Assembly: GCA_036924085.1 (NCBI GenBank)
Contig: JAVGWX010000009.1
Location: forward strand, 63,712,512-63,776,511
Direction of reading: 5' to 3'
DNA length: 64,000 bases
DNA from: Ariolimax columbianus
Taxonomy: Eukaryota; Mollusca; Gastropoda; Stylommatophora; Arionidae
Position numbers and translations under genes: made by a program. The notes below the pieces were generated by a model. That model ran no database searches. It saw only the letters and a list, made by a program, of their open reading frames with translations, and was not told where the DNA came from. Positions 2,690 to 53,030 of the stretch are shown in pieces (positions within the stretch are counted from its first letter, which is position 1; each line of letters opens with the position of its first letter).

Positions 2690-3630
2690 CTTCGTATCTC
2701 TGGCGGGGCTATGCCTATTATGGGGTAAATTTTTCAGTTGGTGTAGGTTTTAGGCATCCAGTAACTATTACCAGATAAGTATAGTGAATTATTTTTAAAC
2801 AAGTTCACATTTGTGTGTACGGTGGAATGATACCATTAAGTGGCAGATGCATAACAGAAATAAAGATCAGGGCAAGATCATGGCGACTTTCAAGAGAAGA
2901 ACAAAACAGACACAAAGACTAGTGAGTAAGTATGTGACAATGGATCGGGTAGACAAACAGTGGGGTAGCATTTGGGCCCTCAATTTCGAAATGACATCGA
3001 AGTTATCATACCGTCTTAGAAAGGTTTGAGATCGCTGCTGAAGGGGGTGGTCATTATTCAGTCTGTTGTGTAATTACCATTATAAATTTGACGAGAACTA
3101 ATAACACATCAAGAAAGGAAAAAGGATGGAGGTTCCTTTCGTGAGAAAGCAACCTCATCAGCCACCATTTCGTGCTCACAACACAAGACGATTTGGCTAC
3201 AACGCACGAGGCAGATCGTTTGACGAGTGGATAGATGTCCTATGAGAAGTCGCACAACAACACTTGCTCACAACAACCCTCAGCACACTTTGCACAATAA
3301 AACACAATCCTTAAAAGCACAGGTGAAGGCAAAAATAAGTACAAGTAAACAAATATGCGTGGTTTGGCTACTCGCAATTAACTTGTTTCTGTCGGCTGTT
3401 TGCCTTCGAGCTCTTTTGTAACTGATCTATTTCATTGTTTTTCTAAATGTTTTTCCCATTTCTGCTTCTGCCCATCCGTATTGCTAATCAAATTTCTTTT
3501 TATCATCTTTATTAAAACGATTTACTTACTTATATTTTGTTATTCTTTTCTCTATGCTGTTTGTACAGGTCTTTCATATTTCCTTGTGCTGCAGTTTCCA
3601 GATTCTTTTCAGCTAAAACACAACTGCAAG
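2690..3630. other. Stretch without a recognised gene
   Basis: Unique-looking AT-rich DNA. Short open stretches on both strands (for example 2811-3029 and 3400-3684 plus) have no recognisable motif, and no SINE, tRNA-like head or tandem array is evident. Confidence 0.4.
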
Positions 3631-3634
3631 AACA

Positions 3635-3915
3635 ACGGTCATTCTAACAGACATACGACCGGATTCAAGCCCCAAACAAGATAGACTCCAACACGAAATA
3701 AAACGTAATATCGGTTGTGTCCAAAAAAAAAACGTATCTAGTCCTACAGTGGATTCTGGCATAATGTGGGATCCTTGGAAACGAGAAGGCAGATGAGCTC
3801 GTAAAACCCGAAAGTGGTAAAGCCACTGACCCAGATTGTGTTTCAGTAGAAGCATTCAAAGCAGACTTTGAAATTATAAAACGGGTTATTATACAAACTA
3901 ATAGGTAAGATTTAA
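3635..3915 (+). pseudogene. RNase H domain remnant of a non-LTR element
   Basis: The plus-strand translation from about 3738 reads VLQWILA, a stop, then CGILGNEKADELVKPES and VSVEAFKADFEIIKR. This matches the last motif of LINE RNase H domains (QWIPxHCGIxGNEKADxLAK). Just upstream, TTVILTDIRPDSS resembles the D-containing motif (VxLTDxxSALQ). One internal stop and an A-rich interruption near 3722-3732 show it is dead. The RT and endonuclease parts are absent. Confidence 0.7.
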
Positions 3916-27139: not shown

Positions 27140-27261
27140 GTCTGGAGGGTCGCTGTAGTCAAGAGGTTAAGGCACTCGTCTCTCACAGTTATGAACGGAA
27201 AATATGGCCGATCGAATCTCGCAAGTTTCAAGAGACCACTGGCCTCACTTGATGTAAGATG
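27139..27261 (+). mobile_element. tRNA-headed SINE fragment
   Basis: GGTCGCTGTAGTCAAGAGGT includes an A-box-like stretch; about 45 nt later GCCGATCGAATCTCGCAAG is a B-box-like stretch. Only the head and about 50 bp of body are left before the LINE-A fragment begins. Confidence 0.5.
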
Positions 27262-28134
27262 CTCTTCTGGTGCCATATTGATGTTGTAGTGCCCCTTTTA
27301 CTATTCACTAATGTCCGTATGCCTATCTGCTGGGACATCAATGTGGTTTGCTCTGGCATAATGTTCAACAAAGGCTTTTGCTGCTTTTTTTCCAGTGAGC
27401 ATGTTGTCACCCTGTTTGATTGTAATTTGTTTGTTGATGGAGTTTCGTCATTCATGGCTATAACTAGCTTCCATAGTTTGTTCCCTTCTTTGTCTAAATT
27501 GGGACTTTCTGTTTTGTTTTTCCAGCTCTCTCTTGCTGTTTGGTTTAGAGTGTATTTGTATTTCGCCGTGGCGGCTTTGAGGGCGATATTTGCCTCCATA
27601 GATTATTCTTGCTCTGCCATGTTCCTAGCATTTGTGACTGCGTCTTCCGCTTTCTGCAAGTCATCATTCCAATAGGGCTTATAATTTTTCCTTGCCCCTC
27701 TTGGGATAGTTTCAGTGGCAGCTTGCATTATTGCTTTGCTTAGGCTTTCCACCATGGGCTTCATTTTGTTATTCCGTGTGTTGATGGTTTCACATAGCCC
27801 ATCTGTCAGGCTTGCAAATCTGTCCCAGTCGGCTCGTTTGTAATTCCAACGTGGGAGCGGTTTTGTTTCCTGTGGGCCTACTACCATATCAACTTCTAGC
27901 CTAATTGGCCTGTGGTCGCTACCTGCCAATTGGTTTAACACCTGGCGGTCTATTTTATGGTGAATGTCCACCGTGGAAAAGGCCAAATCTGGAGTCGAGG
28001 TGGTATGCCATGTTCTAGAATAGAAGCTAGGGCTATCCTCCGGCCTATTGATTAGATAGAGATTTATGTATATCTCCCAATCTTCCACTTCGTCACCTCT
28101 GATGTCTGTGTCCGAGTATCCCCATCTCTGTACG
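27262..28134 (-). pseudogene. LINE-A fragment: endonuclease C-terminus and linker
   Basis: Minus-strand frames encode the end of an APE-type endonuclease (STPDLAFSTVDIHHKID, then QLAGSDHRPIRLEVDM) followed by the linker MKPMVESLSKAIMQAATETI and YWNDDLQKAEDAVTNARNM. These are nearly identical to 47200-48100 of the LINE-A copy, so they belong to one family. The catalytic SDH is present, but the N-terminal half and the RT are absent. A frameshift lies near 27600. It abuts LINE-F coding DNA at 28134/28135. Confidence 0.88.
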
Positions 28135-30035: not shown

Positions 30036-30418
30036 AATTCTTCTTCTTCTTCTTCTTCTTCGTACGCAGTCAGACAGTAACCATTATTTTTTTCGAAAAA
30101 AGCGGCGGTCATCCTGAGGCTGTCGCCACTGCCATATAACTTGTCTTGCAGTTCCACTGGTGATGGCCACATCTGCTCTCTCTGATCCTCGTATGTCGGG
30201 CAGTTCTGCAGCAGATGTTCAGCGGTCATTTTACCGGTACCGCACGGGCATTCGTCGGTACCACCTATCTTCAATTTGTTGAATAGGTGGTACCTCAGTC
30301 TATTGTGGCCAGTGCGAAGTCTGGAGACCACGACCTGCTCTCTTCGGTTCAACTGGTAATAGGCATAGTTTTTGGTGTAACCAGTATGTTCGGTTTCCCA
30401 TTTGGTCATGTATCTGGC
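30036..30418 (-). pseudogene. LINE-A 3' end fragment with (GAA)n tail
   Basis: The minus translation reads YMTKWETEHTGYTKN, QLNRREQVVVSRLRTGHNRL, then YHLFNKLKIGGTDECPCGTG and KMTAEHLLQNCPTYEDQ, nearly identical to the LINE-A copy at 44834-45180. This is the conserved CxCG...AEHLLxxCP region downstream of RNase H. The element ends in (GAA)n, seen as TTC repeats at 30038-30061. 5'-truncated at about 30418. Confidence 0.88.
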
Positions 30419-44577: not shown

Positions 44578-44792
44578 TATCTTATCTTCTTCTTCTTCCT
44601 TTGTCCTACTGCCGTTGCCATTCGGCATCGCAGAGAGGCGGGATGCGTGAATGATTTTTTGTTTAGCGTATCTTATTGGTTTAATACATTATGTTAGTCA
44701 ACTTTAGTGGACTTCATACTGCCTGCGAAACTCCCAAAGTGATTTGTCTTCTATGCTGTCAAATGTTTTTTAGTACTCCCCAAATCCGATAT
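44578..44792 (-). pseudogene. LINE-F relic, downstream half (host of the chimera)
   Basis: The minus strand from 44792 encodes TFDSIEDKSLWEFRRQYEV, the RT motif A region (consensus AFDSIDRxSLWxLLRxYGIP) with an upstream stop. From 44655 to 44578 comes the extreme 3' end of LINE-F (CATCCCGCCTCTCTGCGATG, GGACAAAGGAAGAAGAAG), as at 29280-29330, so the middle of the element is deleted. Its upstream half is on the far side of the composite, at 50696-50900. Confidence 0.78.
44781..44792. repeat. Target-site duplication of the chimera, left copy
   Basis: CAAATCCGATAT, matching CAAATTCGATAT at 50696-50707 in 11 of 12 positions. It directly abuts the complement of the (GAA)n tail. Confidence 0.8.
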
Positions 44793-44833
44793 CTTCTTCT
44801 TCTTCTTCATCGTACGCAGTCAGACAGTAACCA

Positions 44834-47414
44834 TTATTTTTCGAAAAAAGGGGCGGTCATCCTGAGGCTGTCGACACTGCCATAGAAGTTGTCTTGTAGT
44901 CCCACTGGTGATGGCCACATCTGCTCTCTCTGATCCTCGTATGTCGAGCAGTTCTGCAGCAGATGCTCAGCGGTCATTTTACCGGTACCGCACGGGCATT
45001 CGTCGGTACCACCTATCTTCAATTTGTTGAATAGGTGGTACCTCAGTCTATTGTTGCTAGTGCGAAGTCTGAAGACAACGACCTGCTCTCGTCTGTTCAA
45101 CTGGTAATAGGCATCGTTTTTGGTGTAGCCGGTATGTTCAGTTTCCCATTTGGTCATGTATCTGGCTTTAATAAGCCGTTTTGACTCTTCGTACGTCATT
45201 CTGGTATATGTTTGTGGTAGTCTTGCACCTTCTTTTGCCAGTCTGTCTGCCTCCTCGTTGCCTTGGATGTTGCAGTGTGATGGGACCCACTGTACCACTA
45301 CCCTTTTTGGTTCGGACTACAGGCATAGTTGACAGAGTACTGCTCTTAAGTCATTAAGCTCAGTGTTTTTCTGGCTTTTTAGCGCTGTGACTACGGCGAG
45401 AGCATCTGTAAGCAGGACTGTACGGCTTTCATTTTCTTTATGTGTCACCATTTCTTCCACTGCCGCCCTCAGTGCCTCTGCCTCCGCTCTGAAATTGCTT
45501 ATGTACTTACCAGTAGCGAATGACAGTGCTATTTTTCTGCCATTTGGTAGGTTCAGGAATGCTCCTGCCCCTCCGTTCTGTGTAGTGTTTGTTACAGAAC
45601 CGTCGGTGTATGCATGCGTCCAGTCCATGCTTGGGTAGTTTTTCGATATAAAGCTTAGTGTAATATCTCTCCTTTCTTTTTCAGTCTGGCAGTTTTTCTT
45701 TCCAATACCTGGTATATTTTCTACCACCTCTGGAAATATATCCTGCCTCCAGTTAGGTTTTCGTGCAGTAGTGATGGGCTTTGGTGTTGTTAGTGCGTCT
45801 ATGGGATCTTCGTGCATCTTTGCTTTGGCTATTTCTACAAAGTTTCTTCGCTATAGTTTCCCATTTCCCAAATTGTTTAGTCTCTGGTGCATTGGGTGGT
45901 CAGTCAGTCTTCGGAGTTTCTCTGACTGCAGCTGGGCTCTGCAGTCTCTTTTATCGGTCATGGGTTGCAGCTTTGTAACCTTTTCAAGTTCTACAATTGG
46001 CGTTGACTTCATGCCTCCAGTTATAACTCTCATGGCTTGATTTTGAAGTTTGTTAACTTTATCGAAGTTCGCCTTTGCTGCTGTTGTCCATGACACAATG
46101 CCATACTCGAAAACTGGTCTCACTCTTCCAGTGTACAGTTTCTTTAGTATACTTTCGTCTGCTCCCCAGCGTGTGCCAGCAAGTTTCCTCGTGATTGCCA
46201 TTCTTTTTCTGGCTCTCATTCGGTTTCTATCGATCTGACTTTTCCATGCCATGCGCCGATCAAATGTGACTCCCAGATAGTTTGGGTTGTCGTTTGGCTG
46301 CAGGAATTTGCCATTTAGACTTAATTTGGTATTTTGGGGCTTGATTGAAAGCGAAAATTTGTACATGTGGTTTTCTCCTCGTTTATTTTGACCAGCCATG
46401 AGTTCGCCCACTCTTCCAGCGATGTTAGGGCCTGCTGCATCCGATTTCTTGCTATGGTGAGATTCTTTTCAGAGGTCCACATAGCCAGATCGTCTGCAAA
46501 CATTGAGCTATGGACTCTTCTTGGTATATTCTCTGTAATGTCGTTTATATATACCAGGAAGAGTGTGGGTGACAGTACTCCCCCTTGGGGTACTCCCTGC
46601 TCGAGTGTCACCTTTTTGCTCATCTGCCCTTGTACTTGGACTCTGGCCGTTCTTTGTTTGAGGTAGTGGTTGATCCACTTGTACATTCTCCCACAAACTT
46701 CACTTCTCCTTAGCTTGACTCAAGTCCGTCTTTCCAGACTTTGTCAAATGCCTTTTCCAGGTCCACCCAAACCGCTACTGTGTGTTTCTGTGCCTGGTAG
46801 GCATCTTCTATTTCCTGGGATATGAGAATGACCTGGTCCTCAGTGGATCTGTGTTGTCTAAAGCCGGCTTGCTGTGGAATTAGTATTCGTTTTTCTTCCA
46901 GATGCCACATTAGTCTGGTGTTTATCATACGTTCCATCAGTTTGCCGACACAGCTCAGTAGGCTGATAGGCCTGTATCCATTTGGATCTGTTTTGTCCTT
47001 TCCTTTCTTTGGTACTGGTACAAGTACTGCGTCTTTCCATTCCTGGGCTACAATTCCCCTTTTCCAACTTTCGTTCAGGACCGATAGCAGTTTCCTCTTC
47101 GCTGTTTGGCCCAGCCCCATCAGCATTTCGTTTGTTATCCCGTCTTTTCCGGGAGATTTCCTTTTCTTTAGTGTTCTCATGGCCTCTTCCATTTCACACA
47201 TTGTTAATTTGGCCATCATATGCTCTTCTGGTGCCGTATTGATGTTGTCGTGCCTCTTTTGCTCTTCACTAATGTCTGTATGCCTATTTGCAGGGACCTC
47301 GATGTGGTTTGCTTTGGCATAGTGTTCTACAAAAGCGTTTTGCGGCTTTTTAGCCAGAGAGCAAGTTTTTGCCCTGCTTGATAGTAATTTGTTTGTTTGA
47401 AGGGGTTTCGTCAT
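44834..47414 (-). pseudogene. LINE-A ORF2, RT and RNase H part
   Basis: RT: GYRPISLLSCVGKLMERMIN, QQAGFRQHRSTEDQV, VWVDLEKAFDKVWKDGL, GVPQGGVLSPTLFLVYINDI, SSMFADDLAMWTSEKN (catalytic FADD intact) and NYLGVTFDRRMAWKSQID. RNase H: HAYTDGSVTNTTQNGGAGAF (D), NFRAEAEALRAAVEEM (E), LLTDALAVVTALKS (D) and QWVPSHCNIQGNEEADRLAK. C-terminal CxCG...AEHLLQNC follows. Breaks: frame changes near 47395, 46710 and 46350; in-frame TAG at 45851-45853 and at 45317-45319. The endonuclease-RT-RNase H order places it among I-superclade-like LINEs; exact clade is not determined. Confidence 0.9.
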
Positions 47415-48657
47415 TCATGGCTCTGACTAGCTGCCATAGCTTGTAACCTTCTTTGTCTAGGTTGAGGCTTTCGGTTTTGTTTTTCCAGCTCTCTCTTGCT
47501 GTTTGGTTTAGAGTGTATTTGTATTTCGCCGTGGCGGCTTTGAGGGCGATATTTGCCTCCATAGATTGTTCTCGCTCTGCCATGTTCCTAGCATTTGTGA
47601 CTGCATCTTCCGCTTTCTGCAACTCATCATTCCAATAGAGCTTATAGTTTTTCCTAGCCCCTCTTGGGATGGTTTCAGTGGCGGCTTGCATTATTGCCTT
47701 GCTTAGGCTTTCCACCATGGGCTTCATTTTGTTGTTTCGCGTGTTGATGGTTTCACACAGCCCCTCTGTCAGGATTGCAAATCTGTCCCAGTCGGCTCGT
47801 TTGTAATTCCAACGTGGGAGCGGTTTTGTTTCCTGTCGGCCTACTTCCATATCAATGTCTAGCCTGATCGGCCTGTGGTCGCTACCTGCCAGTTGGTTTA
47901 GCACCTGGCGGTCAATTTTATGGGGTATGTCCTGTGTGGAGAAGGCCAAATCTGGAGTCGAGGTGGTATGCCATGTTCTAGAATAGAAACTAGGGCTATC
48001 CTCCGGCCTATTGATTAGGGAGAGATTTGTGTCTATCTCCCAATCTTCCACTTCGTCACCCCTGCTGTCTGTGTCCGAGTATCCCCATCTCTCTGAGTGG
48101 CTGTTGAAGTCTCCAACTACTATGCAGTTGGAGTCTTTGACGTCCATACTCGAGAGCGATAGGTCTTTATTTGGTGGTCCGTACAGATTGAAAATGCGGA
48201 GCTTCGTCTCTTGAGCCATTATGTCAACTCCTACAATTTCTGCTTGTCCGGTGTGATTGACAGATACCGCGCTACTCGGTATGCAGTTTCGGGTCAGTAT
48301 CAGGACCCCTTCATTGTGACCTTCTCTATCGAGACGGAAGGTCTGGTATCCTCTGATTGAGAATTTATGGTTATTGTTGAGGTGCGTTTCCTGGATACAT
48401 GCCACGTCAATCTTACCTTCATGCAGGTGATGTGTTAGGGAAAGCTTTTTGTTAACGACACCCTCCGCATTCCACTGTAGTATTTTGAGAGTCTTGAGTT
48501 TTTGGTCAATAAGAGTTGCCCCATAGCCATGTGCCTTGACTCCACGACACATGGGTGGGTGAACACCAGTAGTCAAGGGTGGGCCCCTTCGAGGCGTGAG
48601 TACTGTCATCATACTGCGATTTACACACTGTTTCGTTAGGCTTGTGGCCCCGTGCAT
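47350..48657 (-). CDS. LINE-A ORF2, endonuclease part (open, 435 codons)
   Basis: An APE-type endonuclease in one open frame: KTLKILQWNAEGVVNKKLS (N), IDVACIQETHL (E of QET), GVLILTRN, IFNLYGPPN (Y), CIVVGDFNSHSERWGY (D and N of GDFN), STPDLAFS and LAGSDHRPIRLDI (D and H of SDH). All expected catalytic residues are visible. The start at 48657 is only the first Met; the true translation start may be different. The C-terminal part is a linker to the RT, reached through a frameshift near 47395, so the full protein cannot be made from this copy. In complete elements it nicks target DNA for target-primed reverse transcription. Confidence 0.85.
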   Translation of the reverse strand: MHGATSLTKQCVNRSMMTVLTPRRGPPLTTGVHPPMCRGVKAHGYGATLIDQKLKTLKILQWNAEGVVNKKLSLTHHLHEGKIDVACIQETHLNNNHKFSIRGYQTFRLDREGHNEGVLILTRNCIPSSAVSVNHTGQAEIVGVDIMAQETKLRIFNLYGPPNKDLSLSSMDVKDSNCIVVGDFNSHSERWGYSDTDSRGDEVEDWEIDTNLSLINRPEDSPSFYSRTWHTTSTPDLAFSTQDIPHKIDRQVLNQLAGSDHRPIRLDIDMEVGRQETKPLPRWNYKRADWDRFAILTEGLCETINTRNNKMKPMVESLSKAIMQAATETIPRGARKNYKLYWNDELQKAEDAVTNARNMAEREQSMEANIALKAATAKYKYTLNQTARESWKNKTESLNLDKEGYKLWQLVRAMNDETPSNKQITIKQGKNLLSG

Positions 48658-49269
48658 CCGATTTCAACAGGCGTTTCTGTAGGGATGCCCTCCTTAGCCT
48701 TTGACTGTCCTCAGCATATCTGCAAGGCAGCAGTTGTTTGTGATCAGAGTTGTCTTTCTTATGGAAGTTGTCTTACCAGACTAACGAGTCTTCACTACTC
48801 GTGTCTATAGGGTGCGGTGATGATATTTGAGATGATATATGATATGGACTGGTTTACCCGGAAGAGAGGCAGTCCAGTGTGTCTGTATCCCAGGATCGTC
48901 ACGTCCTGCCAGAAACGTAGCATTTGCATGTGAGTGGGGTATCTCTTTGCTCCCTTTATTTTCTTGGCTTCTATGCAGGAATGGTACGCCTAGCATTCCC
49001 CGCCACCTGGGATATTGACACAGTGGGGCAGGTGTGCAATGTTCGATAGTCTGCATCTCTTCTGCGTCCATTGGTATGGCTGATAGCGTGCAGAGGTAGA
49101 GATCGAAGCAGAAGTGCATTTAACCAGGGGACAAGCCTGGTAATGTCACGGAGATGTTCGCCTGGTTTGCAGACATATCTCGTGGTCAAGGAATGAGTCT
49201 CGACAGTTCACAGTGAGGTGGCTGCTCTACTGTTTTCGACACCCCGACCAAGAACTAAGTCTTATGTTG
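48658..49269 (-). other. LINE-A upstream part, fused to 18S
   Basis: 612 bp between the 18S breakpoint and the endonuclease frame. A 104-codon open stretch (48805-49119 minus) shows no CCHC knuckle or other ORF1 feature. So the copy either has a 5' UTR but no ORF1 here, or was 5'-truncated before fusion. No second copy is in the window for comparison. Confidence 0.6.
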
Positions 49270-50036
49270 CAGGCCGAGGCCTGCTTTGAACACTCTAATT
49301 TTTTCAAAGTAAACACACCGGCCACCCAGGACGCTCAGTAAGAGCACCCGTGGGAGAGAGCCGGCAGACGGTAGGGCAGGAGACAACGGGCAGTGAACCG
49401 GCGCGAGCCAGACCGCTCGCCTGCGCCTGAGATCCAACTACAAGCTTTTTAACTGCAACAACTTTAATATACACTATTGGAGCTGGAATTACCGCGGCTG
49501 CTGGCACCAGACTTGCCCTCCAATAGAACCTCGTTAAAGGGTTTAAAGTGTACTCATTCCAATTACGGGGCCTCGAAAGAGTCCCGTATTGTTATTTTTC
49601 GTCACTACCTTCCCGTGCCGGGAGTGGGTAAGTTGCGCCCCTGCTGCCTTCCTTGGATGTTACAAACATGGTAGGCATGTCACGTACCATCGACATTTGA
49701 TAGGGCAGACATTTGAAAGATGCGTCGCCGGCACATGAGGCCATGCGATCAGCACAAAGTTATCCAGAGTCACCAGTGGGGACGCCGCAACCCCGCGAGG
49801 GGAAACGATGATTGGTTTTGAACTAATAAAAGCGCTCTTTCCGCGAGGGTCGGAGCTTGGTAAGCATGTATTAGCTCTAGAATTGCCACAGTTATCCAAG
49901 TAGGATCGTGTCATCTAAGGAACCTCGACTGATTTAATGAGCCATTCGCGGTTTCACCGTGAGACAGTGTGAACTTAGACATGCATGGCTTAATGTTTGA
50001 GACAAGCATATGACTACTGGCAGGATCAACCAGATA
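49270..50036 (-). rRNA. 18S rRNA, 5' part only (about 767 nt)
   Basis: The minus strand starts TATCTGGTTGATCCTGCCAG, the canonical 18S 5' end, and continues with AGTCATATGCTTGTCTCAA. Also seen in complement are CAGCAGCCGCGGTAATTCC, the 530-loop region, and the run TTTACTTTGAAAAAATTAGA to GTTCAAAGCAGGCC. The match stops after GGCCTG at 49270, about 40% into a normal 18S gene, and LINE-A sequence follows. The V4-type variable segment (49290-49430) fits a mollusc by general appearance. It cannot give a functional 18S because about 60% of the gene is missing and it is not followed by ITS1 or 28S. Confidence 0.93.
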
Positions 50037-50695
50037 TCTGTCGGAGACGTACGTACCGCACACACCGGTCGGCTGAGGACGGATGTGTAAAAAGCCTCCT
50101 GGGACGGCCGCAGGGACCGACTGACGAACGGACGGATGGTTGTTCCCCCCCCCCCGTCCCTCACTCCGTCGACCTAGGACCACCTGACAGGGGCCCCTAC
50201 ACACACCAGACGACCGACCGACGAGGCTCGCTCGAGGAGGGATGGCAGCGCTCTGTGCAGAACGGATCCCAACGACCCCGGCGATGAATTTCACTGGGAC
50301 TAGATACAATTTGGCCTGCCGGCCTGCCGGCCTGCCCTTCTCCCAAGGGTTGGTCCCCGGGAGAACACAGGGCCTTCAGGCACGATTCCTGCTTTGCATT
50401 TGCCGGTCACAAGCTCTTTGCGAGAGTCTGACTACCAGCGAGAAGCGAACTGTCGAGCTTTGCTATAAGCCTTAGATAAATCACCACCGACTGAAAACGT
50501 TTCTCGATACGGACCAGAGCAGCGCACCTCGGCGGAGGAGACGCCAAAAAAAAAACCGCATCCCGATTCCTCTACGGAGAAAGGCGAGCAAGCGTTTTCG
50601 GCAAGCTCGCGCTATCGCTCTGCCTGGCGGGACTGAGATCGCTTTACGAACACTGGCTGAGATTGAATCGCGGCGGCGAGACAACTACCCCAGAT
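50037..50695 (-). other. 5' external transcribed spacer (pre-rRNA leader)
   Basis: GC-rich sequence (CGGCCGGCCTGCCGGCCTGC-like near 50320, poly-G run complement at 50146-50155) directly upstream of the 18S 5' end on the same strand, unlike the AT-rich surroundings. It ends exactly where the 12-bp direct repeat begins. Position and composition support 5'ETS; its start at 50695 may be at or near the Pol I start site. Confidence 0.75.
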
Positions 50696-50707
50696 CAAAT
50701 TCGATAT
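50696..50707. repeat. Target-site duplication of the chimera, right copy
   Basis: CAAATTCGATAT, partner of CAAATCCGATAT at 44781-44792. It sits at the boundary between the GC-rich ETS and AT-rich LINE-F coding DNA. Confidence 0.8.
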
Positions 50708-51350: not shown

Positions 51351-53021
51351 TCAGACCGTCTTTAAATCGTTTCTTTGGGCGCCTCTCTCGCGCCATCCCT
51401 CTCCCAGCTCGCCGTAGAGAAGCTTCTTTGGGAGCCGCTCGTCTGACATACGAACGATGTGTTCGGCCCATCCTAATCGTGCTTTTTCTAGCAGTGCATG
51501 GATGCTGGGTATGTTAGCCCTCGAAAGAACCTCGATGTCAGTGACAGGATCTGGCCATCGGATGTGGAATATTCGCCTCAGGCAACCTGTGTGGAAGTGG
51601 TTTAACCTCCTTGCATGTCCAGAGTATACAGTCCAGCTTTCGCAAGCGTATAGTAGGGTTGGAATGATGGTTGCACGGTAGACTTTGAGTTTGGTCTTGA
51701 CGCTGATGCCATGACGTGCCCAGACCATCGAGCGCATTTTACCAAAGGCTGTGCTGGCCTTTGCTATTCTGCTTGCCACCTCATCGTCTAGGCTGACAGA
51801 TCTCGACAGCGTGCTGCCCAGATATGTGAATTTGTCTACGACATTTAGCGTCTGCCCGCTGACTGTAGTCTCTGGTTTTGTGTACGGCATGCTTGGTGCT
51901 GGTTGGTACATGAACTCTGTTTTTTTGGCATTTATGGTCAGGCCAAAATTGTCGCATGCGGCAGAGAGCCGGTCCATTCCAACCTGCATGTTCAGTTCTG
52001 AGTAGCTCATTAGATTGCAGTCGTCAGCAAATACAAGTTCCCTGATTATGTCGCCAGCCACTTTGGTTTTGGCCTTCGTTCTTCTGGGATTGAGTAACTT
52101 GCCATCTGTGCGGTACTTTATAGGTATTCCAAGCTCCAGTGATCTGGAAGTGTCTGTCATTGTGGCCGCGAACATCATGCTGAACAAGGTCGAGGCGAGT
52201 ACACATTCTTGTTTTACTCCGTTTGATACTAGAAATGTTTTAGAGATTGCACCGCTGTCCAGTACACGAGCACACATGCCTTTGTGTAGCTGTTTCACCG
52301 TGGTTATGAACTTGTTGGGGCAGCCAATCTTGGACATCATCATCCACAACCCTCCTCTGTTTACTGTATCAAATGCTTTTGTCAAATCAATAAATGTGGT
52401 GTACAAAGCCTGATTTTGTTCCCGACACTTCTCTTGTACTTGGCGAGCGGCAAAAATCATGTCCACTCTTCCTCTTCGGGCTCTGAACCCGCATTGGCTT
52501 TCTGGGAGATGGTGGCTTTGTTCAAGGTGTTTGTTGAGCCTGTTTAGCAGTAAGCGCGCTAGGATCTTGCCTGCTACGGAGAGTAGTGATATTCCACGAT
52601 GATTGTCGCATTCCTGACGGTTGCCTTTTCTTTTGTACAGGTGAACGATTGAGGCGTCCTTTAGCTCCTGCGGAATTTTTCCTTCAGCCCACATGTGGCA
52701 GAAGAGTTCAGTGATCCTTCTAGTGAGGGATGGGCCAGCTGTCTTATATATCTCTGCTGGTATTGCATCCGCTCTTGGAGCTTTTCCTATAGATAGTGAA
52801 CTGGTTGCCCTGTCGACTTCTTCCTCAGTGATGACATCATCTAACGCCAGGTTCAGTTCTACCTGCGGCATTCGCCGGATGGCCTCCTCATTTATGGACG
52901 ATGGGTGGTTTAGTATTTTGCAGAAGTGGTCTGCCCATTTGTCTAGAATCTGAACCTTATCTGTTGATGTTACACTCCCAATAATTGCGTTGTTTACCTC
53001 CGGCGTGTTTACCCTCTGCAT
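51351..53021 (-). CDS. Reverse transcriptase open frame of the RT-ZF LINE (556 codons)
   Basis: RT blocks in order: GKAPRADAIPAEIYK (about residue 78), LKDASIVHLYKRKGNRQECD, NHRGISLLSVAGKILARLLL, LPESQCGFRARRGRVDMIF, YTTFIDLTKAFDTVNRGGLW (motif A), VSNGVKQECVLASTLFSMMF, IRELVFADDCNLMSYSELN (catalytic FADD intact, about residue 320) and FTYLGSTLSRSVSLDDEV. The thumb has LLYACESWTVYSGHARRL and the connection LGWAEHIVRMSDERLPKKLL plus YGEL. No RNase H. The long intact frame suggests a younger insertion than the other LINEs. RTE-type affinity is plausible; the clade is not proven. It would synthesise cDNA at a nicked target in complete elements. Confidence 0.88.
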   Translation of the reverse strand: MQRVNTPEVNNAIIGSVTSTDKVQILDKWADHFCKILNHPSSINEEAIRRMPQVELNLALDDVITEEEVDRATSSLSIGKAPRADAIPAEIYKTAGPSLTRRITELFCHMWAEGKIPQELKDASIVHLYKRKGNRQECDNHRGISLLSVAGKILARLLLNRLNKHLEQSHHLPESQCGFRARRGRVDMIFAARQVQEKCREQNQALYTTFIDLTKAFDTVNRGGLWMMMSKIGCPNKFITTVKQLHKGMCARVLDSGAISKTFLVSNGVKQECVLASTLFSMMFAATMTDTSRSLELGIPIKYRTDGKLLNPRRTKAKTKVAGDIIRELVFADDCNLMSYSELNMQVGMDRLSAACDNFGLTINAKKTEFMYQPAPSMPYTKPETTVSGQTLNVVDKFTYLGSTLSRSVSLDDEVASRIAKASTAFGKMRSMVWARHGISVKTKLKVYRATIIPTLLYACESWTVYSGHARRLNHFHTGCLRRIFHIRWPDPVTDIEVLSRANIPSIHALLEKARLGWAEHIVRMSDERLPKKLLYGELGEGWRERGAQRNDLKTV

Positions 53022-53030
53022 TGCCTTTCA

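Follow-up and report, generated by a model that had tools for sequence, protein, structure and literature searches.

Several non-long terminal repeat (non-LTR) retrotransposons, R1 and R7 among them, reside in ribosomal DNA (rDNA), R7 inserting in the 18S gene, and read-through by RNA polymerase I (Pol I) is held to feed such elements, which stay in the rDNA. The R2-derived SIDEs are non-autonomous retroposons. R8 elements insert in 18S genes (PMC5035012), and R2-type elements have their RNA supplied by Pol I co-transcription and freed by a self-cleaving ribozyme activity (PMC7650587). Ribosomal RNA (rRNA) is also met fused to long interspersed nuclear elements (LINEs): PMC13174262 describes 28S/L1 chimeras (n = 18, with 50-482 nt of 28S, 83% in sense orientation) and reports duplications for 5S/L1 chimeras, its main text having 0 occurrences of "18S rRNA". 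Here we examine a 64,000-nt stretch of the Ariolimax columbianus genome (contig JAVGWX010000009.1; the window), whose minus strand carries at 44793-50695 a retro-inserted unit of 5' external transcribed spacer (5'ETS), 18S rRNA, a LINE designated LINE-A and a (GAA)n tail, flanked by target-site duplications (TSDs) identical at 11 of 12 positions. Judged by sequence comparison, this unit belongs to a dispersed retroposon family, of which it is a decayed copy with internal deletions, and the family's parent LINE probably lodges in 18S genes, is co-transcribed with them by Pol I and has the read-through RNA retroposed whole.

A first-pass annotation of this stretch had taken the unit for a single chimera; the further ETS-18S-LINE joins that it proposed to look for turn out to be widespread in the assembly to which the window belongs (2.29 Gb in 401 contigs). 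The ETS-18S query gave 4168 first-look candidates, a figure not equal to confirmed copies, and all 40 of those scored, spread over 18 contigs and including the window, match, which rules out a one-off event. The match starts at query base 1 in 36 of these 40 places, again including the window. A query made from the LINE 5' region gave 3597 candidates and likewise matched in 40 of 40 scored, 39 at 96-97% identity and the window itself at 100%. The family join, at which 18S nt 1237 (rDNA position 1875) meets the LINE leader (ACTCAACACGG followed directly by CCAACACTG), is present with at most 3 mismatches in 30 at 43 of 100 loci of at least 200 nt, two of which, L004 and L039, are one copy. Among 29 LINE loci fetched besides the window (L010-L038), 17 have an 18S stretch of more than 150 nt in the 1.5 kb upstream. 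In its usual form the leader runs from 5'ETS through 18S nt 1-1237 and an older, diverged layer resembling 18S and 28S into the LINE. Copies with 18S beyond nt 819 have about 1.2 kb between that nucleotide and the point of the LINE where the join of the window copy falls; all six loci scanned by Rfam have matches to the small subunit (SSU) rRNA, and five of them (not L036) have a 28S-like stretch of about 400 nt, at RF02543 positions 3007-3399 in L010, L024, L027 and L030 and 3005-3399 in L003. One locus, L040, holds the autonomous chain in a single fetched stretch, from the start through an 18S with a deletion, the join and the leader to LINE position 3909; no 3' end could be located within that stretch.

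Upstream flanks were read for 33 copies (L001-L008, L040, L041, L050-L069 and L106-L108, L001 being the window), taken from the best matches, so that truncated copies are under-represented. In 32 of the 33 the head begins at one and the same nucleotide, the A of ATCTGGGG (base changes inside the motif allowed), and in L058 it begins 2 nt later. Plus-strand comparison of the flanks gave 0 matches at E 1e-3 among 528 pairs; the pairs L062/L065 and L005/L056 look similar by eye near the insertion, perhaps because of related repeats. The real rDNA lies on small contigs, where the unit of contig C222 (L102) has sequence extending upstream of the start and matches both the unit after it (L104, 601 nt) and one on C50 (L105, 786 nt) at 100% identity. 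TATATT followed by the start occurs 122 times in the genome; among 100 of these places, taken in contig order, small contigs (numbered C50 or higher) account for 96 and chromosome-size ones for 4. On five contigs the spacing of the TATATT-linked starts is often 12.15-12.3 kb or a multiple of it, with the irregular spacings mainly on C67 (one reverse TATATT site on C67 excluded). Since the start base stands behind a constant sequence in rDNA arrays, the common start nucleotide is probably the Pol I start.

Marks of retroposition were also read in non-autonomous partners that have LINE-A's leader and tail. One of these, L039, is complete: about 3.55 kb long, it consists of ETS, 18S, leader and (GAA)3 and is flanked by GATTACAAAT. 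Paired flanks were obtained for 12 of its sister copies, six of which were testable, the others (L070, L072, L073, L077, L081 and L086) ending at or in the tail. Duplications are found in all seven non-autonomous copies with enough 3' sequence (L039, L076, L078, L080, L082, L083 and L084). In the six tested by script, the exact words shared by the two flanks measure 12, 12, 7, 13, 12 and 9 nt, while the longest in 132 mismatched control pairs is 8 nt; the 7-nt word of L080 is within the control range, and 11 of 12 nt agree there by eye. The window copy and all seven testable partners thus combine a TSD with a 3' tail, one of the partners only with a mismatch. The ending GCGTACGATGAAGAAG is common to the non-autonomous copies and LINE-A, a 3' end shared with a LINE as in short interspersed nuclear elements (SINEs). 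Their head, where a SINE would have its Pol III promoter, consists of pre-rRNA sequence, which Pol I normally transcribes.

The window copy can be read against this background. Its parts are as follows.

44781-44792, no strand: TSD copy on the LINE-tail side, CAAATCCGATAT (direct reading)
44793-44817, minus: 3' end GCGTACGAT(GAA)n, common to the non-autonomous partners
44834-45850, minus: LINE-A RNase H region and C-terminus, with a stop between two open stretches (RNase_H)
46710-47414, minus: LINE-A reverse transcriptase, 5' part, broken frame (RVT_1)
47350-48663, minus: LINE-A endonuclease region (PF14529, PF03372)
48630-49269, minus: LINE leader part common to the non-autonomous partners, LINE positions 1 to about 640, overlapping the 28S-like stretch
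49179-49272, minus: stretch derived from the 28S rRNA 3' end (RF02543 positions 3302-3395)
49273-50033, minus: 18S rRNA nt 1-819 minus 55 nt, nt 376-430 (Rfam and the genome's own rDNA)
50034-50695, minus: 5'ETS-derived head (alignment to rDNA unit L102, from L102 position 470)
50696-50707, no strand: TSD copy on the ETS-end side, CAAATTCGATAT, 11/12 identical to the other (direct reading)

Much of what the first-pass annotation had drawn from the letters holds good: the block is a single inserted unit of 5.9 kb on the minus strand between 12-nt direct repeats with one mismatch, placed as it had put them at the LINE tail and at the ETS end, and the part that it had called 5'ETS is just that, the 662 nt 5' of the 18S aligning to the real 5'ETS at an identity of 0.894. 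The first base of this head, 50695, is the common family start and inferred Pol I start. The identity of the 18S likewise stands (Rfam SSU_rRNA_eukarya, 50033 to 49170, minus strand, 462.7 bits); its extent, given as the first ~767 nt, does not, being nt 1-819 with an internal deletion, which the Rfam alignment had placed at 76 nt and the genome's own rDNA corrects to 55 nt. Two features had been overlooked. One is that the join of 18S to LINE at about nt 767 (819 on the real gene) is itself a deletion, so that relative to the family the window copy has lost about 1.2 kb from 18S nt 819 to LINE position 1 in addition to the 55 nt inside the 18S. The other is the 28S 3'-end stretch between 18S and LINE, which a permissive Rfam scan matched to RF02543 3302-3395 with 25.5 bits (E 8.6e-4), below the gathering score of 50; the match is borne out because relatives have longer, above-threshold 28S matches, and the stretch is, to judge from those relatives, a remnant of the older 28S-like layer of about 400 nt kept in fuller leaders.

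The endonuclease (EN), RVT_1 and RNase_H domains of LINE-A are all present on the minus strand in broken frames, which makes it a LINE of the EN-reverse transcriptase (RT)-RNase H kind. Among the best 120 of 202 protein relatives, those named to species, a minority, are gastropods, of the genera Arion, Littorina, Elysia, Pomacea, Aplysia, Batillaria and Candidula. Two more LINE-A fragments lie in the window, at 27259-28129 and 30042-30418, 91% and 94% identical to the copy described here.

The unit seems to be inserted into another LINE, termed LINE-F, a view based on a by-eye reading of the flanks, on known LINE motifs and on the repeat. The flanks read LNRIKLERLKETIDKQ...KIIVEQIVKLNFT on one side and LYIxFGEY*KTFDSIEDKSLW on the other, and the reading is continuous over one repeat copy if a 1-nt slip is allowed just upstream. 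To this extent the earlier claim that a host RT is split by the unit stands; the homology searches lend it no support, comparison of the flanks with Pfam returning 0 families, a protein search one candidate and no match, and tblastx no other LINE-F copy within the window. Another LINE, seen as a 558-aa open frame with RVT_1 at 51351-53027 on the minus strand, is situated just upstream of the host flank.

Several further arrangements were noted among the fetched loci. In L041, ETS-18S runs to rDNA position 1834 and is followed by DNA that is not LINE-A and has its own (GAA)4 tract (1904-2690); a duplication was looked for there and none was found. Pieces of LINE-A are nested in sense orientation in the 18S head or leader of other copies (L074, 215-1760; L088, 617-1499). 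Exact 18S 3' ends occur at 33 readable genome places, mostly on chromosome-size contigs, and several of the 12 that were fetched (L090-L101) have longer 18S-ITS1 heads (ITS1, internal transcribed spacer 1) joined to the LINE leader. Heads may also be stacked: in L047 and L048, near 1592 and in sense, 18S nt 1393 (rDNA 2031) is joined directly to a second ATCTGGGG start, and in L049 18S nt 1394 (rDNA 2032) is joined to 18S nt ~929 (rDNA 1567).

The question of where the heads come from was approached by aligning 10 older copies (L001-L008, L040 and L041) to the rDNA unit. Substitutions fixed in at least 9 of the 10 number 49 in about 633 nt of ETS and 0 in about 850 nt of 18S; because free evolution of the head within a master LINE would be expected to alter ETS and 18S alike, this argues that the heads derive from functional rDNA. 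The 18S of the older copies diverges by 0.5-1.5% in seven, by 3.3% in L003 and by 4.6% in L001, L040 not being usable. A query with today's ETS gave 1454 candidates, and the 40 scored are all 100% identical throughout their 638 nt. Of these, 15 belong to rDNA contigs and the other 25 to chromosome-size contigs, where not one coincides with any of the 4 chromosomal TATATT-linked sites. Three of the 25, young dispersed copies, were read; all three are close to the rDNA over 1875 nt (99.95, 99.89 and 100% identical), and they have the same join of ACTCAACACGG to CCAACACTG as the old copies.

The same join is also found inside an rDNA array. A unit on C67 (L109) measures 18,554 bp from start to start, against the common 12,150; it has the TATATT-linked start, rDNA positions 1673-1875 at 100% identity and then the LINE leader exactly at 1875. 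Over 351 nt across the join it is 99.1% identical to the dispersed copy L106, the head of which is 99.95% identical to today's rDNA. Most of the other rDNA-contig stretches examined for joins or for the 3' junction are wholly N (L111, L113-L118 and L120-L123) or partly N (L110, L112 and L119), and L124 is DNA unlike either reference. The flanks of the 33 dispersed copies show a target preference, with T at -15 (21/33), T at -14 (26/33) and A or G at -12 (29/33), and when 2612 positions of ETS, 18S and ITS1 are scored by this motif the join at 1875 ranks 5. The 12 nt before the join, GACTCAACACGG (18S nt 1226-1237), would then be the duplication, and several of the duplications seen likewise start with GA. 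The leader of L039 contains an older copy of the 1237 join (83% identity over 141 nt), which suggests that this 18S site had been used before.

On C67, C50, C86 and C190 several rDNA units or unit runs exceed a multiple of the usual spacing by 3-7 kb, which suggests more insertions. Two apparent regularities were discarded, a shared end in ITS1 at position 2632, which is the edge of an N stretch in the reference, and 18S ends at 1886 and 1904 in two C67 units, which are mask edges.

The cycle that we propose, with its steps in the order that we infer, would begin when LINE-A nicks TTTGACTCAACACGG in an 18S gene and inserts by target-primed reverse transcription, its 3' junction falling within the rDNA; duplication of the 12 nt GACTCAACACGG would leave the join ACACGG followed by CCAACACTG. 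Pol I would start at ATCTGGGG and transcribe 5'ETS, 18S nt 1-1237 and then the element. The rRNA leader would stay uncut, unlike that of R2, and the enzyme would copy the whole transcript from the (GAA)n end to the 5' end, so that new copies, wherever in the genome they land, have the Pol I start as their first base. The same route would yield the non-autonomous partners, which share this head and tail, and the window copy would be one product, landed, seemingly, in another LINE. An extension of this scheme, to which we give an even chance, makes the rDNA array a transcription hub: a LINE with loose target choice keeps founders in 18S genes, Pol I makes its RNA and copies with an rRNA head are exported, which have no rDNA promoter of their own and so need re-entry into 18S, their heads being dated fossils of the ETS.

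Several observations weigh against read-through from 18S-resident founders. Twelve of the 29 LINE copies fetched by their 5' region lack an 18S stretch above 150 nt within 1.5 kb upstream; a visible rRNA head is therefore not common to all LINE copies. The 49 fixed ETS differences amount to 7.7%, large next to the 18S divergence and unexplained, and they are clustered, with 13 at nt 100-150 and 12 at nt 300-350. A single resident unit was read, at its start and from position 1673 on; its 3' junction lies in N, and the interval from the start to 1673 is 26 nt shorter than the coordinates predict. Gene conversion of a dispersed copy into rDNA would predict an identical 5' join, and the older 18S-like DNA of the leader ends at the same place, so that homology-guided template switching also predicts it. 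The motif behind the rank of the 1875 join, although drawn from dispersed copies only, had its columns picked after the flanks were inspected. Other joins rank low: 226 for 1834 (L041), 1867 for ~2047 (L042), 1448 for 2283 (L046), 166 for 2595 (L044), 402 for 2625 (L096) and 2282 for 2374 (L043), the last becoming 18 if shifted by 2 nt. The joins at 2031 (L047, L048) and 2032 (L049) rank 66 and 82, and the adjoining 2029 (L045) ranks 780.

The main rival is template switching, in which the LINE enzyme, while at its own 18S-like leader, jumps to abundant pre-rRNA and copies it to the 5' end, each insertion thereby gaining a new head. It explains the common start, heads that match current rDNA, the variety of joins and the stacked heads of L047/L048 and L049 (2032 to 1567), and the sense-oriented 28S/L1 chimeras of PMC13174262 offer a precedent; for joins off the motif, it or recombination would have to be invoked. 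It predicts neither a main join coinciding with the target motif of the element itself (rank 5 of 2612) nor an rDNA unit with that join (L109). The heads here are as long as about 1.9 kb, and 32 of the 33 copies read begin at the rDNA start. As a general account we consider it unlikely. Both template switching and Pol I read-through had been offered by the first-pass annotation, and it is the second that the L109 join, the motif and the current-rDNA heads favour.

A single dispersed master, fused long ago with ETS-18S and amplified with a fixed head as an ordinary LINE or SINE family, would account for the sharing of one join by 43 of 100 loci (L004 and L039 counting as one copy), for the existence of leader subfamilies and for the ETS type common to the older copies. 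We nevertheless think it quite improbable, given 0 fixed changes in 18S as against 49 in ETS, copies with ETS identical to today's rDNA at the same join, and several different 18S positions as head ends; since DNA upstream of +1 is missing from such a head, a master outside the rDNA would also need another promoter. Less probable still, to the point of being barely credible, is an assembly artefact or a DNA-level transposition of rDNA pieces beside LINEs: rDNA arrays are hard to assemble, and the rDNA contigs are small and partly masked, but the copies, found on 18 contigs, start at one and the same nucleotide while differing in their flanks, and they have (GAA)n tails and duplications of their own.

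If read-through from 18S-resident founders is indeed the source, the read-through product itself appears here to be dispersed, and its 5' ends mark the rRNA transcription start at single-base resolution in many independent copies. The family would then preserve a natural archive of where pre-rRNAs begin and of how the 5'ETS has evolved. It would also be a source of 18S pseudogenes, which matter for 18S barcoding and for assembling rDNA in genomes of this kind, and would offer a case, open to testing, of a LINE intermediate between the site-specific and the free way of life. An ETS-18S-LINE family of this kind was not found in a search of open-licence literature, which is not proof of its absence; a text search with strings of the 28S-like stretch gave nothing on rDNA by title, and viral contigs searched for the ETS/18S junction pattern yielded 0.

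How, then, does the family stand beside its closest described relatives? Like R1, R2, R7 and R8, LINE-A would combine insertion into rRNA genes with RNA from Pol I read-through, both being proposed on sequence grounds. Unlike the R elements, it has many dispersed copies, TTNRA-type sites genome-wide and non-autonomous partners, and unlike in R2 its rRNA leader stays attached back to the transcription start. Strict target specificity of the R type is contradicted by copies on many contigs with different flanks; of a fixed rDNA site there is one array unit with the 18S nt 1237 join, L109, its 3' junction in N. The family is R-element-like up to transcription, and it is not filed as an R element because site specificity fails and the head is retained. 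With the U6/L1 and 28S/L1 chimeras it shares rRNA 5' of a LINE, mostly in sense and within a single insertion, and it differs from the 28S/L1 chimeras and their 50-482 nt of 28S in having 5'ETS and 18S from the transcription start, many copies and an EN-RT-RNase H LINE; of the independent joins expected of template-switch chimeras there are several, but the main one is shared and recurs in an rDNA unit. Finally, the partners resemble SINE28, cited in PMC13174262, as non-autonomous retroposons with rRNA-derived parts, and are set apart from both SINE28 and the SIDEs by the length of about 3.55 kb, the ETS and 18S head and the LINE-A tail of L039.

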